DNA from: Bacteroidaceae bacterium | GTDB lineage: Bacteria; Bacteroidota; Bacteroidia; Bacteroidales; Bacteroidaceae | NCBI GenBank assembly: GCA_017617805.1 | Contig: JAFZVN010000061.1 | Location: forward strand, 1-34,713 | Direction: 5' to 3' | DNA: 34,713 nucleotides | In this document: one piece after another, positions 335 to 31,303 of the stretch | Numbering within the stretch: the stretch's first letter is position 1 | Layout: each line of letters begins with the position of its first letter | Translations under genes and position numbers: made by a program | Notes under the pieces: generated by a model | What the model was told of the DNA's origin: nothing | Databases searched by the model: none | What the model saw: only the letters and a program-made list of their open reading frames with translations

Positions 335-354
335 GAGAAAAACTAAAAACTAAA

Positions 355-423
355 AGTTAAAAATTTGCTACCGCACGTGTTTGTCAGCTGTTGACTTACT
401 GCTGCGGTAGCAAATTTTTAACT
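355..423. repeat. Perfect 21-bp inverted repeat, candidate gene-less element or hairpin
   Basis: Bases 355-375 and 403-423 are exact reverse complements, with a 27-base loop between. The inner arm (aaatttgctaccgca) is the same as the inner arm flanking the four-helix-bundle gene at 23.2 kb. It lies after the smalltalk gene and could also end its transcript, but the downstream T tract is part of the arm rather than a separate run. Confidence 0.85.
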
Positions 424-551
424 TCGTCGAGCTAAAGGTTCACTTTTCATTTTTCAACTTCATTTTTCACTTTTCACTCATAAAAGCCTTCCCATTTTAC
501 TTCCGAAAGTTGAATTATTCTATTTGAAATGTCACTTTTATTTCCTTCACT

Positions 552-14830: not shown

Positions 14831-14928
14831 AAAGTTTAAGGGTTAAAGTTTAAGGGTTAAAGACACTGTACGCTGTAATCTGTAAACTGTAAACTGTAAA
14901 CATTAAACTGTAAACTGTAAACATTAAA
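14831..14928. repeat. Tandem low-complexity repeats before lpxH
   Basis: A 14-base unit occurs twice (14831-14844, 14845-14858; aaagtttaagggtt). Then a 21-base unit of gtaaact/cattaaa words occurs twice (14887-14907, 14908-14928). No TAnnTTTG promoter is visible, so lpxH may be read through from upstream. Confidence 0.8.
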
Positions 14929-14938
14929 CTTTACAGCT

Positions 14939-15866: not shown

Positions 15867-16430
15867 TTGTTTTGTAGATGTTATTGCACTTGCAGATTTT
15901 GCGGAACTGTTGAAACAATAATGGACGCTTTCAACATATACAAGAATGCAGCAAAGCCGTCAACCTGGCTGGGGACGAATATGATTTTGAATATCGTGCC
16001 ATAATATAATAAAACGACCTGCAGATTTAAGCATCGTAGAGAGGCTTGGCGGGTTCTCGTACTGCAAAGATTCTACCTTTTTCCCATCTCTGCCCAATAT
16101 TTCCTCTATTATTTCAAAGAACCACAAAAAAATAACTTCCCTTGACCTTTTCATCAATGAAAGTACAGAATGCCTGAATGTTAAGCCTCTCCAGAAAATT
16201 ATATGAATAATCAAATCATGGGAAGGGACACCCAAATGTTTGCTTGATTATTTATGGACTCATGACTTTTTTCTTGTTTTAGAGGGTTCTGAATGATTTT
16301 TATCCATCCGAGCAGCAGACATACGATACCTCTGCCTCCCTCTGCTGGATTGGAGCCAAAACTCACTCCTGTAGGGAAGAAACAAACTACCACGTAAAGC
16401 AGCACGCTAATGGTCACAGCGTAATCTGTT
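15867..16430 (-). pseudogene. Spacer with a possible remnant of a small membrane protein
   Basis: No convincing intact gene lies here. On the minus strand, just after the leucine-rich gene, a frame reads HFETDYAVTISVLLYVVVCF, a Pro/Gly turn, then GRGIVCLLLGWIKIIQNP. It looks like two membrane helices of a small Bacteroidetes membrane protein, but the frame has no good start and then runs into unconvincing sequence ending near 16211. A second minus-strand frame (15960-16235) resembles nothing. A 9-bp inverted repeat (aataatcaa at 16206, ttgattatt at 16244) lies inside. Remnant status is a guess. Confidence 0.3.
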
Positions 16431-21929: not shown

Positions 21930-22415
21930 ATGACAGCAAGACAATCGAGACTCGACATCATCAAGGGGATTATCCAGACGCAAGAGATTGGTAGTCAGGA
22001 GGAACTGGCGCAGGCACTCTCGAAGGAGGGGGTGAACATGACGCAGGCCACCCTGTCGAGAGACCTGAAACTGCTGAAGGTGGTGAAGGGTTTCTCACCG
22101 AAGGGACGCTCCATCTATATGTTGCCTGAGAATCCCTACTACCGAAGGGTGAGGGAACATCGGCAGGAAGGAACGGCCATTCAGAACGGATTCATGTCGG
22201 TGCGGTATTCGGGGCAGTTGGCGGTCATCAAATGCCGACCTGGTTATGCCAGCGGATTGGCGAGCGACATCGACAATGCCCATTTCCATGAGGTGATTGG
22301 CACCATTGCTGGCGATGACACCATCTTCCTGGCATTGGAGGAGGGGGTCAACAAGGAAACGCTCGAAGCGAATCTCAGAACAATTGTACCAGTGTATCCG
22401 GGGAGCCAAGGGTAA
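21930..22415 (+). CDS. argR: Arginine repressor
   Basis: A 161-residue ArgR. The N-terminal winged helix has IKGIIQTQEIGSQEELAQAL and the recognition helix TQATLSRDLKLLKVVKG. The C-terminal domain binds arginine and forms hexamers, with SDIDNAHFHEVIGTIAGDDT including the GT.AGDDT motif. Full length. It heads the cluster of arginine genes that follow on the same strand, and half-sites in its own promoter suggest autoregulation. Confidence 0.95.
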   Translation: MTARQSRLDIIKGIIQTQEIGSQEELAQALSKEGVNMTQATLSRDLKLLKVVKGFSPKGRSIYMLPENPYYRRVREHRQEGTAIQNGFMSVRYSGQLAVIKCRPGYASGLASDIDNAHFHEVIGTIAGDDTIFLALEEGVNKETLEANLRTIVPVYPGSQG

Positions 22416-22541
22416 TTTACGATTTGACCATTTACCATTTACAATTTGCCATGCGGCGAGAAAGTAAATCGTTAAATTGTCAAATCATCAAATGGAAAAA
22501 ACAAATTGTAAATTGTAAATCGTAAAATAGTAAATAAGATT
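22416..22541. repeat. AT-rich inverted repeat with gccatgcgg core
   Basis: atttacaatttg at 22437-22448 is mirrored at 22502-22513, with imperfect extension outward. gccatgcgg is at 22448-22456. The element fills the whole argR-GNAT spacer, and the GTG of the next gene lies just after it. Confidence 0.75.
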
Positions 22542-23177
22542 GTGATATACGAAGACGGAATCAAGGTGATTGTAGCCGATGCAAGCCACGAGAAGTATGT
22601 GGACTTGATTATCAATACAATACGCGAGGCAGCAAAGAAGCGTGGCACAGGTATTGCTGAGCGTACACACGAGTATGTGGCCACGAAGATGAAGGAGGGC
22701 AAGGCGGTGCTGGCGCTCGACCCCAGCAAGCAGACAGAACTGGGCGACACGTTCGTGGGCTTCAGCTACATCGAGACGTGGGGCAACAAGTCGTATGTGA
22801 CCACGTCGGGTCTGATTGTGCATCCTGACTATCAGGGCAGGAACATCGCCAAGCGCATCAAGGATCACACCTTCACGTTGGCACGTGTGCGTTGGCCTCA
22901 TGCCAAGATCTTCTCCCTCACGAGCGGCGACGCGGTGATGAAGATGAACACGGCATTGGGATATGTGCCTGTGAGCTTCAAGCAACTGACGGATGACGAT
23001 GCCTTCTGGAGAGGCTGTCGCGGTTGTGTGAACCACCCCATTCTGGAGATGAAGGAGCGCAAGTTCTGCATCTGCACAGGCATGCTGTACGACCCTGCAC
23101 AGCACAAGGGTGAACCCACACCTGTGGAGATCTTCCAAGAAATCATGAAGGAAATGGTGTTAAGGGAAAAGGGATAA
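22542..23177 (+). CDS. GNAT acetyltransferase of the arginine cluster, candidate N-acylglutamate synthase
   Basis: A 211-residue GNAT protein with the acyl-CoA site near TSGLIVHPDYQGRNIAKRIK (V/I-x-P-x-Y-Q-G-R-x-I pattern of motif A) and a late Cys-rich stretch (GCRGCVNHPILE, KFCICTG). Bacteroidetes lack a classical argA, and this gene keeps its place between argR and argG in the genomes I know. A role in making N-acetyl- or N-succinylglutamate, the first step of arginine synthesis, is therefore the likely function; this is context-based. The start is GTG 22542, with no ATG nearby. The stop lies at the edge of the inverted repeat enclosing the next gene. Confidence 0.85.
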   Translation: MIYEDGIKVIVADASHEKYVDLIINTIREAAKKRGTGIAERTHEYVATKMKEGKAVLALDPSKQTELGDTFVGFSYIETWGNKSYVTTSGLIVHPDYQGRNIAKRIKDHTFTLARVRWPHAKIFSLTSGDAVMKMNTALGYVPVSFKQLTDDDAFWRGCRGCVNHPILEMKERKFCICTGMLYDPAQHKGEPTPVEIFQEIMKEMVLREKG

Positions 23178-23178
23178 G

Positions 23179-23621
23179 TGAAAAGTGAAAAATTTGCTAC
23201 CGCAGTCTATGGGATATCTTCAAAATAGTCAATCGCCTCTAACAGTGAAAAGCTATAGCTTTGCTATCAGAATCGTAAACACAGTGAAGAATATCACATG
23301 TAGTCCTAAAGAATACGGAATGATGAATCAAATTTTTCGTTCTGGAACAGCGATAGGAGCATTGGTAAGCGAATCGACTTATGCACAAAGTCCTAAAGAT
23401 TTCATTAGCAAACTTTCCATAGCCCTAAAAGAATGCAATGAAACCCTCTATTGGCTCAATCTTTTGAAAGATACGGGATATTTGCAGACAGAAGATTTTA
23501 CAAGTTTAGAGAAAGATTGTCGAGAATTACTCGCTCTCTTAATTTCATCGATAAAAACAACAAAACAAAATATATAAAAAGAAGTGACGATGGGAAGCGG
23601 AAGCAAATTTTTCACTTTTCA
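23179..23621. repeat. Inverted-repeat element enclosing the four-helix-bundle gene
   Basis: The 25-base arms 23179-23203 and 23597-23621 are reverse complements at 24 positions. The inner part (aaatttgctaccgc) matches the hairpin at 355-423. Between them is only the four-helix-bundle gene. In the mRNA the arms would pair and loop out the gene. No transposase or clear target-site duplication is seen. Confidence 0.8.
23209..23577 (+). CDS. Four-helix-bundle protein, 23S rRNA intervening-sequence (IVP) family
   Basis: A 122-residue all-helical protein: KSYSFAIRIVNTVK, then MNQIFRSGTAIGALVSESTY, SPKDFISKLSIALKECNETL and YWLNLLKDTGYL. This is the clear pattern of the IVP family (S23 type), first known from intervening sequences inside 23S rRNA genes and related to the accessory proteins of diversity-generating retroelements. 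Its function is not settled; an RNA-binding pentamer is likely. ATG 23209 is preferred; GTG 23185 lies within the left repeat arm and GTG 23246 is also possible. It is more AT-rich than its neighbours and interrupts the arginine operon between GNAT and argG. Confidence 0.88.
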   Translation: MGYLQNSQSPLTVKSYSFAIRIVNTVKNITCSPKEYGMMNQIFRSGTAIGALVSESTYAQSPKDFISKLSIALKECNETLYWLNLLKDTGYLQTEDFTSLEKDCRELLALLISSIKTTKQNI

Positions 23622-23645
23622 TTTTTCACTTTTAACTTAAAAATT

Positions 23646-24851
23646 ATGGAATCAAAGAAAAAGGTTGTCGTTGCCTTCAGCGGCGGATTGGATACCAGCT
23701 ACACGGTGATGTATCTGGCAAAGGAAAAAGGTTATGAGGTGCATGCTGCATGTGCCAACACGGGTGGCTTCTCGGCTGAACAGCTGAAGACGAACGAGGA
23801 GAACGCTTACAAATTGGGTGCCACGAAGTATGTGACGCTCGACGTGACACAGGAATACTACGCCAAGTCACTCAAATATATGGTGTTCGGCAATGTGCTG
23901 AGAAACAATTGCTATCCCATTTCGGTATCGTCTGAGCGTATCTTCCAGGCTTTGGCGATTGCACGTTATGCGAAGGAGATCGGTGCCAGCGCCATTGCAC
24001 ATGGTTCGACAGGTGCAGGTAACGACCAGATCCGTTTCGACATGACGTTCCTTGTGATGGCTCCCGGTGTGGAAATCATCACCCTGACCCGCGATGGCAA
24101 CCTGAGCCGTCAGGAGGAGATTGACTACCTGAACAAGAACGGCTTCGCTGCTGACTTCGCGAAGTTGAAGTATTCTTATAATGTGGGCATCTGGGGCACC
24201 AGCATCTGCGGTGGCGAGATTCTCGACTCCACACAGGGTCTGCCTGAGTCTGCCTATCTGAAGCACCCCACGAAGGAAGGTCCCGAACTGCTGAAGTTGG
24301 GCTTTGAGAAGGGTGAGCTCTGCTCGGTGAACGGCGTCAAGTACGATGACAAGATCAAAGCCATCCAGGCTGTGGAGGAGATTGGTGCTGCGTATGGCAT
24401 CGGTCGTGACTGCCACGTGGGTGACACCATCATCGGCATCAAGGGACGTGTGGGCTTTGAGGCTGCGGCTCCGATGCTGATCATCGGTGCACACCGTTTC
24501 TTGGAGAAATACACGCTCTCGAAGTGGCAGCAGTATTGGAAAGACCAGGTGAGCAACTGGTATGGCATGTTCCTGCACGAGAGCCAATATCTGGAGCCTG
24601 TGATGCCCGACATCGAGGCGATGCTGACTTCTTCGCAGCGCAACGTGACTGGCGAGGTGACCCTCGAACTCCGTCCTCTCTGCTTCCAGACCGTAGGTGT
24701 GGATTCGCCCAACGACCTTGTGAAGAACAAGCTGGGTGAGTATGGCGAGACTGCCAAGGCATGGTCATCTGAGGATGCCAAGGGCTTCATCAAGGTGACC
24801 TCTACCCCACTCCGCGCTTATTATCTGGCACATCCAAACGAGGAAAGATAA
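23646..24851 (+). CDS. argG: Argininosuccinate synthase
   Basis: Joins citrulline and aspartate, using ATP, in arginine synthesis. The 401-residue protein has the ATP P-loop-like motif VVVAFSGGLDTSYTVMYLA at the N-terminus, AIAHGSTGAGNDQIRFD in the middle, and NVGIWGTSICGGEILD. The length is normal. The frame is open upstream through the right repeat arm, but ATG 23646 is the natural start. No separate promoter is seen, so expression probably depends on readthrough from argR across the inserted element. Confidence 0.96.
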   Translation: MESKKKVVVAFSGGLDTSYTVMYLAKEKGYEVHAACANTGGFSAEQLKTNEENAYKLGATKYVTLDVTQEYYAKSLKYMVFGNVLRNNCYPISVSSERIFQALAIARYAKEIGASAIAHGSTGAGNDQIRFDMTFLVMAPGVEIITLTRDGNLSRQEEIDYLNKNGFAADFAKLKYSYNVGIWGTSICGGEILDSTQGLPESAYLKHPTKEGPELLKLGFEKGELCSVNGVKYDDKIKAIQAVEEIGAAYGIGRDCHVGDTIIGIKGRVGFEAAAPMLIIGAHRFLEKYTLSKWQQYWKDQVSNWYGMFLHESQYLEPVMPDIEAMLTSSQRNVTGEVTLELRPLCFQTVGVDSPNDLVKNKLGEYGETAKAWSSEDAKGFIKVTSTPLRAYYLAHPNEER

Positions 24852-30299: not shown

Positions 30300-31211
30300 A
30301 TGATAGCACAAGTAATGCTCACCCTGTTTGCCATCGTCGTCGTGGGCTACGTGGCAGGCAAGAAAGAATACATGGGCGGCACGTTCGACAAGCGGCTCTC
30401 CAAGCTCGTCATCGACATCAGCTGCCCAGCCCTCATCCTCTCCTCAGCCATGACCGGCGAGCTCCCCGACCGCAGCTACATCCTGCCGCTCCTCGGCATC
30501 AGCGCCATCACCTACGTGCTGCTCACCGCCGTGGCCTTCTGGCTTCCACGCCTGCTCACCAAGCAGAAAGCCGACGAAGGCCCCATCGGATTCGCCCTCA
30601 TGTTCGGCAACGTCGGCTTCATGGGCTATCCCATCGTCGCCAGCATCTTCGGTCACGAAGCTGTGTTCTATGCTGCTGTGCTCAATGTGGTCAACACCTT
30701 CGCCGTCTTCACCGTCGGCACCATCCTCATCACGGGCAAGACCGTCAATGGCCCCAAGTTCCAGAAGAAAGTCCTCTGGTCCACGCCCATGATCTCCGCC
30801 TATCTCACCATGCTCATCGTAGCCCTGCGCATCGAAGGAATCCCCCAGTGGATCAGCCAGCCCCTCACCATGATCGGCAACATCACCGTGCCAGCCGCCC
30901 TGCTCATCATCGGCTCGTCGATGTCGCAGCTCCCCCTGCGGGCCATGCTCGGCACCCCCTCCATCTATGCCACCACCCTCCTTCGCCTCGCCGTCCTGCC
31001 CATCGCCATCCACTACCTGATGCAGCTCCTCGGCTTCTCCCCCTTCGTCGTAGGCATCAACACCGTGGTCATCGCCATGCCCGTCGCCACCTACGGCACC
31101 ATCCTCTGCCTGCGCCACGGCAAAGACACCACCCTCATCACCCAAGTCACCTTCATCACCACCCTCCTCTCCATGCTCAGCATCCCACTGCTGGTCACAT
31201 ACATTATTTGA
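30300..31211 (+). CDS. AEC family transporter
   Basis: A 303-residue inner-membrane protein with about ten hydrophobic segments. It has the family look: MIAQVMLTLFAIVVVGYVAG, LVIDISCPALILSSAM, GFALMFGNVGFMGYPIVASI (the conserved N-x-G-F-x-G-x-P motif) and GINTVVIAMPVATYGTI in the second half. AEC proteins export auxin-like or dicarboxylic compounds, or act as malate permeases. The substrate here cannot be told. ATG 30300 is the last base of a repeat plus TG; the frame extends upstream only as an overlap with the acetyltransferase. Confidence 0.9.
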   Translation: MIAQVMLTLFAIVVVGYVAGKKEYMGGTFDKRLSKLVIDISCPALILSSAMTGELPDRSYILPLLGISAITYVLLTAVAFWLPRLLTKQKADEGPIGFALMFGNVGFMGYPIVASIFGHEAVFYAAVLNVVNTFAVFTVGTILITGKTVNGPKFQKKVLWSTPMISAYLTMLIVALRIEGIPQWISQPLTMIGNITVPAALLIIGSSMSQLPLRAMLGTPSIYATTLLRLAVLPIAIHYLMQLLGFSPFVVGINTVVIAMPVATYGTILCLRHGKDTTLITQVTFITTLLSMLSIPLLVTYII

Positions 31212-31214
31212 TAA

Positions 31215-31297
31215 GTGAAAAGTGAAAAGTGAAAAATCCAAGTTACAAACCATCCGGATGGCAGTAAAATAGATTTTTCACTCTTCAATTTTCACTT
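31215..31297. repeat. Inverted repeat with ccatccggatgg core between convergent genes
   Basis: The left arm (31215-31238) is made of gtgaaaa words and the right arm (31272-31297) of their complement; the inner 11 bp pair perfectly. The centre holds the palindrome ccatccggatgg (31250-31261). It separates the AEC and GH106 genes and probably ends both transcripts. Confidence 0.75.
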
Positions 31298-31303
31298 TAA
31301 GTC

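Follow-up and report, generated by a model that had tools for sequence, protein, structure and literature searches.

The locus analysed here raises the question of why a short gene for a four-helix-bundle protein of the IVP family should lie inside long inverted repeats between a GNAT gene and argG of a Bacteroidaceae bacterium. To our knowledge, neither IVP genes nor the GxxExxY genes considered below, both of which are widespread, have an accepted function. In the window, which is the whole stretch of 34,713 nucleotides that was analysed, the IVP gene (23212..23577, + strand) codes for 121 amino acids from an ATG. Its frame opens upstream with a GTG at 23185, and because this codon falls within the left arm, the ATG at 23212, located 8 nt inside the stem, is the likely start. 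Both neighbours are co-directional with it, the GNAT gene (22542..23177, +) upstream and argG (23646..24851, +) downstream. The left arm (23160..23203, +) consists of outer degenerate heptamers and an inner handle, GTGAAAAATTTGCTACCGC (handle A; 23185-23203), and the right arm (23597..23640, +) is its inverted copy, with one mismatch in the handle match at 23597-23615. These 44-nt arms are 86% complementary and have 393 nt between them. A sequence-only reading had noticed arms of 25 bases (23179-23203 and 23597-23621) matching at 24 positions; the count was reproduced (24/25), and this pair is the inner portion of the 44-nt arms. That reading let the left arm start at the GNAT stop codon and placed the right arm 25 bases before argG, which holds for the shorter arms but not for the extended ones. 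The extended left arm contains the 3' end of the GNAT gene and supplies its last codons and stop (23175-23177), and the extended right arm ends 5 nt before the argG ATG at 23646.

The proposed family of the enclosed gene was borne out by profile searches, in which the window ORF exceeded the curated cut-offs of both TIGR02436 (2.4e-29; 101.8 bits, cut-off 24) and PF05635 (2.1e-25; 89.5 bits, cut-off 33.8). The ORF matched IVP-type models only, and the searches revealed neither a catalytic domain nor a known transposase in the window element. The IVP gene is under purifying selection: dN/dS amounts to 0.07-0.19 in three pairs among the copies of G011, G012, and the window genome G000 (an assembly of 66% completeness with a single full-length IVP gene and a weak, partial match), and to 0.04-0.19 in those nine of 18 IVP pairs that gave a value, the others being saturated (eight) or returning no result (one). 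Five chains are listed for each of the solved relatives 2rld and 2gsc, and the Xanthomonas IVP protein is, according to PMC4990558, a homopentamer whose subunits are four-helix bundles. Its homology to Avd, a DGR accessory protein of related fold that is essential to retrohoming, is discussed in PMC10053308.

ORFs of the S23/IVP type are also found in intervening sequences (IVSs) of 23S rRNA, for example in Coxiella and Leptospira, where they are described as sporadic and regarded as selfish (PMC4990558). Like these IVSs, the window element has an ORF of this protein family within a long complementary stem, and a predicted RNA fold of 23150-23650 is closed by the arms (z = -5.4; 0 of 100 shuffles equally stable). 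The window element differs from the IVSs in that it lies between protein genes, has arms composed of heptamer arrays, and is accompanied by dispersed gene-less copies. It is not located within an rRNA gene: its neighbours are the GNAT gene and argG, and no rRNA match was found in 20 sources with 118,944 bases. At gathering scores, Rfam recognised no known RNA in the arms or hairpins. Elsewhere in the window, at 16017-16053 (- strand), an Rfam abiF RNA was found (RF03085; 46.3 bits, gathering 37), and this match suggests an AbiF-type defence locus nearby. IVP ORFs have further been reported from rRNA insertions of CPR bacteria (PMC11270868) and IVP genes from cas loci, such as between cmr3 and cmr2 (PMC3936711). 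The accessible text of PMC8934634 and PMC10910872 contains passing mentions only of GxxExxY or IVP. No link of either family to inverted heptamer arrays was found among the titles and abstract openings listed in searches of the open-access literature.

Arms like those of the window element surround most IVP genes of the genus. Among 92 IVP loci (250-nt flanks, match score of at least 40), the flanks form inverted arms in 68 cases and direct repeats in five, compared with matches in 27 of 1095 cross-paired flanks, and 24 of the 92 stay under the threshold. After collapsing sites by their flanking genes, the arms are inverted at 37 and direct at three of 52. These genus-wide controls exclude a chance origin of the arms. 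Most IVP arms are tandem heptamers; the best period is 7 or 14 nt in 54 of the 68 inverted-arm loci, and among 41 collapsed arms a significant period of 7 or 14 nt was obtained in 27, another period in ten, and none in four. It could be argued that such arms are no more than common spacer or terminator hairpins of low complexity and that IVP genes merely survive in these gaps. Heptamer arrays are indeed common (73 in 435 kb); for 52 of them no inverted partner lies within 900 nt, and direct heptamer repeats without a gene are present at the same sites. However, only four of the 342 predicted genes in 435 kb reach the threshold with inverted arms (five with direct ones), also when matched flank windows are used, and these four are two IVP genes and two genes beside the element in the arg cluster of G012. 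The excess of inverted over direct and cross-paired matches in IVP flanks, an arm unit that tracks the IVP clade, and the position of most elements in gaps flanked by genes of the same strand, a setting in which a terminator would come at a cost, also contradict this explanation. On the counts of 68/92 inverted versus 5/92 direct and 4/342 predicted genes, the interpretation of the arms as ordinary spacer words was rejected, and we regard an origin of the pattern by mere survival in such gaps as very improbable.

The repeat unit follows the phylogeny of the protein. The arm is tied to IVP genes in that IVP clades share arm units even at unrelated sites, and seven of the eight arms with a period of 9 or 10 nt fall into one IVP clade of a tree that is based on few columns, has many unresolved forks, and leaves out seven of the 92 loci (partial or odd frames). 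Among locus pairs with unrelated flanks, similar arms occur in 0.2% of those below 30% protein identity, in 43% of those at 60-70%, and in seven of 11 at 70-85%. With one locus per site, arm similarity and IVP identity are positively correlated across 41 sites (Spearman 0.35, a value reached in 0 of 1000 permutations). These sites come from 72 loci, as 20 of the 92 with weak arms or partial sequences were left out. One exception to this coupling is the pair L084/L097, with 78% identical proteins and unrelated arms.

A comparison of orthologous spacers illustrates how unevenly the elements are distributed. The GNAT gene is present in 41 of 45 genus genomes at 42 places, and of the 30 loci read (12 of the 42 matches were left out) only four, in G000, G010, G011, and G012, have the IVP unit between GNAT and argG. 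The other 26 spacers, 23-205 nt in length, lack it. Empty sites with exact ends had been suggested as a check, and empty sites do exist, but none of the 26 resembles an occupied site so closely that exact ends could be read from it. Some of these spacers contain gene-less hairpins of other kinds: in G015 and G016 they match arms that surround a GxxExxY gene in G015 (score 105), and in G014 the best match is to another IVP clade (score 55). Between pta and ackA, an IVP element of the sister family B is absent from 24 of 30 spacers; six contain it, three contain a GxxExxY element, and 21 contain neither. When species genomes were scanned with the window protein and the best 80 of 100 relatives were kept, the A-family IVP was found in at least eight site clusters among the 24 closest loci (L307-L330), which belong to Prevotella-type genomes. 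The handle is present in the aligned arms of 23 of these 24 loci, and L330 has the outer heptamers only. The sites include spots before argG and argC, and other genes that follow the A-family IVP presumably encode LutC, LutA, IF-2, an XRE/cupin regulator, and acetyl-CoA synthetase, as well as an aldehyde dehydrogenase and an ABC ATPase. Because the same IVP family is found with the same arms in at least eight site clusters, gene and arms together are, judged by their distribution, a mobile unit. This is in line with the earlier idea of a mobile unit that brings its own stem and needs no transposase, as no recognisable transposase is encoded in it. Among 17 A-IVP copies, the left outer end contains TAAGGG in ten and the right end ACCTT in nine. 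No clear target duplication was recognised in these 17 copies, which lack a close empty site and in which the longest shared words of 5-8 nt have no consistent place.

The orientation of the IVP genes points to a connection with transcription of the host operon. At 37 of 40 scored distinct sites the IVP gene is co-directional with both neighbours, whose strands were taken from crude longest-ORF calls, and no reversed IVP gene between two same-strand genes was seen among the 40. Since only 72% of gaps (253/351) lie between same-strand genes, the IVP gene probably depends on read-through transcription or is tolerated only with it. The same bias lends indirect support to the earlier view of an element that lives in mRNA. 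Alternatively, the structure might be primarily an mRNA-level device, in which the stem provides RNase III or translation control for the arginine operon, the IVP protein autoregulates by binding the stem, and mobility is incidental. The co-directional sites, the stable stem with the start codon 8 nt inside it, and the cleavage of 23S IVS stems by RNase III, as reported in PMC4990558, would fit such a device. However, a function of this kind is difficult to reconcile with the 26 of 30 GNAT-argG spacers that lack the unit, and the occurrence of the unit upstream of several unrelated genes implies that it is not tied to arginine. Control of the arginine operon is thus a quite improbable explanation of the element.

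Besides the gene-bearing elements, many hairpins with the same ends contain no gene. In G000, handle A occurs in 51 copies with up to three mismatches (26 forward and 25 reverse), compared with 0 for the reversed-letter control. Thirty-six of these copies form 18 pairs spaced 37-49 nt apart, which are gene-less hairpins; another two, separated by 412 nt, belong to the arms of the window element, and the remaining 13 have no partner. In 13 of 15 short A hairpins examined in this genome the two words are 48 nt apart. Handle A was found in 24 of 45 genus genomes (up to two mismatches), and handle B, GTGAAAAATCTAAGTTAC, taken from the pta-ackA IVP elements, in 38 of 45 with up to 89 copies, the control for handle B being 0 across the 45 genomes except for one count in G011. 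The window itself contains one gene-less hairpin of family A (345..440, handles at 356-374 on the + and 404-422 on the - strand) and two of other IVP arm families: an inverted heptamer pair in the gap between argR and GNAT (22415..22535), whose arms are closest to the IVP elements L116 and L111, and a hairpin of family B (31203..31300) with the handle of the pta-ackA elements. The latter is an element of about 90 nt that recurs at many places among the matches listed and is missing from all 11 readable orthologous spacers, that is, those of the 30 loci given in which both flanks were found. Other hairpin families were compared through the arm similarity of single hairpins only. Of the 73 heptamer arrays, 21 have an inverted partner within 900 nt. 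The gap to it measures 26-53 nt in the hairpins and 409-456 nt where an IVP gene is enclosed, with one exception of 653 nt in the arg cluster of G012. In short hairpins, an arm resembles its own partner hardly more than it resembles arms from other copies of the family, and co-variation of the arms within single short hairpins (43 A, 16 B) received support in the first heptamer only (20 and 21 of 1000 shuffles).

Several repeat arrangements depart from the simple hairpin. A CTGTAAA-like heptamer array in the window (14862-14936), which lacks a strong inverted partner, best matches the arms of the IVP element L051 (score 46), and locus L123 contains a 209-nt solo array of the GATGTAC type (2438-2646) with no inverted partner within 900 nt. 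Family A handles are arranged head to tail at a spacing of about 46 nt in G010 (G010:C44:40063-40314), five on one strand followed by one reversed, and G011 contains a shorter tandem series (G011:C1:21617-21801).

A second gene family occupies comparable structures. The inverted-arm elements at pta-ackA of G007, G026, and G030 enclose a GxxExxY gene; all three copies match PF13366, and that of G026 also matches TIGR04256 (E 1.5e-35). From the PF13366 matches listed, 70 were taken and one was dropped, leaving 69 genus loci. Inverted arms are present at 35 of these, compared with 17 of 1019 cross-paired flanks, with best periods of 8-11 nt and none of 7 nt. A period of 7 or 14 nt thus distinguishes IVP arms (54/68) from GxxExxY arms (0/35; Fisher 2e-16, uncorrected for relatedness), also after collapsing (27/41 versus 0/27). 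A uniform GxxExxY architecture was rejected: strong direct flanking repeats, with scores up to 239, occur at 18 of the 69 loci, and a significant period (9, 10, or 11 nt) was obtained for 11 of 27 collapsed arms and not for the other 16. Direct repeats were noted at L447, L455, L462, L465, L467, L476, and other GxxExxY loci, in some cases alongside inverted arms. In G007, a partial IVP element downstream of ackA and the GxxExxY element upstream of it (G007:C57:9383-11541) suggest an insertion hot spot.

The combination of one gene, inverted repeats at its flanks, and gene-less hairpins resembles two known systems. In REPIN/RAYT systems (REPtrons), a single gene is flanked by inverted palindromic repeats and many gene-less hairpins are found elsewhere in the genome. 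Dispersed hairpins that share the gene-flank sequence were likewise found for families A and B. However, the window ORF is not a Y1 HUH transposase gene, the repeats of the IVP unit are tandem heptamers, and some genomes contain several arm families. With IS/MITE pairs the IVP unit shares inverted ends common to gene-bearing and gene-less copies as well as site polymorphism, and it differs in having no known transposase, no fixed target duplication in the copies seen, and ends made of tandem arrays whose unit varies by clade. By analogy, the IVP unit may work like a REPIN/RAYT or IS/MITE pair without a known transposase, and the gene in its hairpin appears to represent a minimal mobile element of a new kind. 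We favour this reading, in which the IVP gene and the inverted, family-specific heptamer arrays around it form a minimal mobile element that is accompanied by a larger population of gene-less hairpins with the same ends, with a probability of about 65%.

It is also conceivable that something else, such as a RAYT/HUH transposase, a reverse transcriptase, or replication slippage, mobilises the hairpins and that the IVP gene is a passenger that has repeatedly landed in their loops. Handle A is abundant in genomes in which no A-family IVP was found (74 copies in G035, 56 in G015, 35 in G043, and 30 in G016, with assemblies that are 81-98% complete), and G015 has no TIGR02436 match at all. These genomes count against the IVP protein as the mobiliser, and the lack of a recognised catalytic domain in IVP and the occupation of comparable arms by GxxExxY genes agree with a passenger role. 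However, each IVP clade is accompanied by its own arm unit at unrelated sites as well, and at pta-ackA the 21 of 30 spacers without either gene have no B hairpin into which a passenger could have moved; a pre-existing hairpin as the target was rejected for this site, although B words are present elsewhere in the locus in three of the 21. A RAYT as the mobiliser was rejected as well, because Y1_Tnp, which reaches the cut-off in 14 of 45 genomes, does not co-occur with hairpin-rich genomes (no match, for example, in G007, G011, G012, G014, G035, G041, and G043). A passenger IVP gene is therefore rather unlikely.

Inverted arms at IVP genes recur in Cyanobacteria and other phyla. Among the best 80 of 100 relatives of the window protein, 55 loci have inverted and four direct arms (25/49 and 4/49, respectively, for rows not labelled Prevotella), with a cross-pairing control of 107 of 955 that is high because 24 rows share one arm family. 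In 12 named genomes, 29 of 44 listed matches were taken and one was dropped for its short flank; the arms are inverted at 14 and direct at four of the 28 loci scored. Inverted arms were observed in Leyella, Parabacteroides, Parapedobacter, Phascolarctobacterium, Thiotrichaceae, Halobeggiatoa, Chamaesiphon, and Clostridium, and at one of four loci in Algibacter. At two Halobeggiatoa loci and the Clostridium locus the direct score exceeds the inverted one, and the Carboxylicivirga, Prolixibacteraceae, and Marinicella loci of this set are under the arm threshold. In the cyanobacterial order of Chamaesiphon the IVP family occurs in 43 of 60 genomes, and among 29 new loci, the best-scoring ones of the matches, 20 have inverted and three direct arms (cross-paired, 16/812), with nine under the threshold. 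The period is 7 or 14 nt in 19 of these 20 inverted arms. The STRR sequences of cyanobacteria are also heptamer repeats. TAACTGA direct repeats have been described from Beggiatoaceae, Cyanobacteria, and Bacteroidetes, for whose horizontal spread "no mechanism is evident" (PMC4679880). As far as that description goes, they share with IVP arms the period of 7 nt, the intergenic location, and the same three bacterial groups; they were reported as direct repeats, whereas the IVP heptamers form inverted pairs around the gene. The terms "s23", "four helix", and "intervening" are absent from the main text of PMC4679880.

If the minimal mobile element is the correct reading, the IVP gene and its heptamer-array arms would be transferred as one unit, and the gene-less hairpins would retain the ends of the element as MITEs do for an IS and REPINs for a RAYT. 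The IVP protein might bind its own heptamer hairpin, either in DNA or in the read-through RNA, and recognition of its own array could direct copying or insertion with the help of host or other functions. Judging from the orientation bias, expression of the gene would rely on read-through from the host operon, where the stem may render the element tolerable, much as rRNA helix tips tolerate 23S IVSs. More tentatively, and at somewhat less than even odds, IVP and GxxExxY elements could belong to a single class of minimal mobile elements that spans phyla, with an array spacing determined by the protein family (7 nt in most IVPs and about 9-11 nt in GxxExxY). Heptamer repeats of Cyanobacteria, Beggiatoaceae, and Bacteroidota would then be footprints of this class, and 23S IVSs would be members that landed in rRNA helix tips. 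The placement of IVP genes inside repeat-bounded mobile units gives this protein family a testable role, and the rRNA intervening sequences gain a family of relatives outside rRNA. IVP units also offer a possible origin for the heptamer repeats whose horizontal spread had appeared, in the account of PMC4679880, to have no evident mechanism. Should IVP indeed read its own heptamer, the family would offer a very small protein for the recognition of repeats, with many specificities already present in nature.
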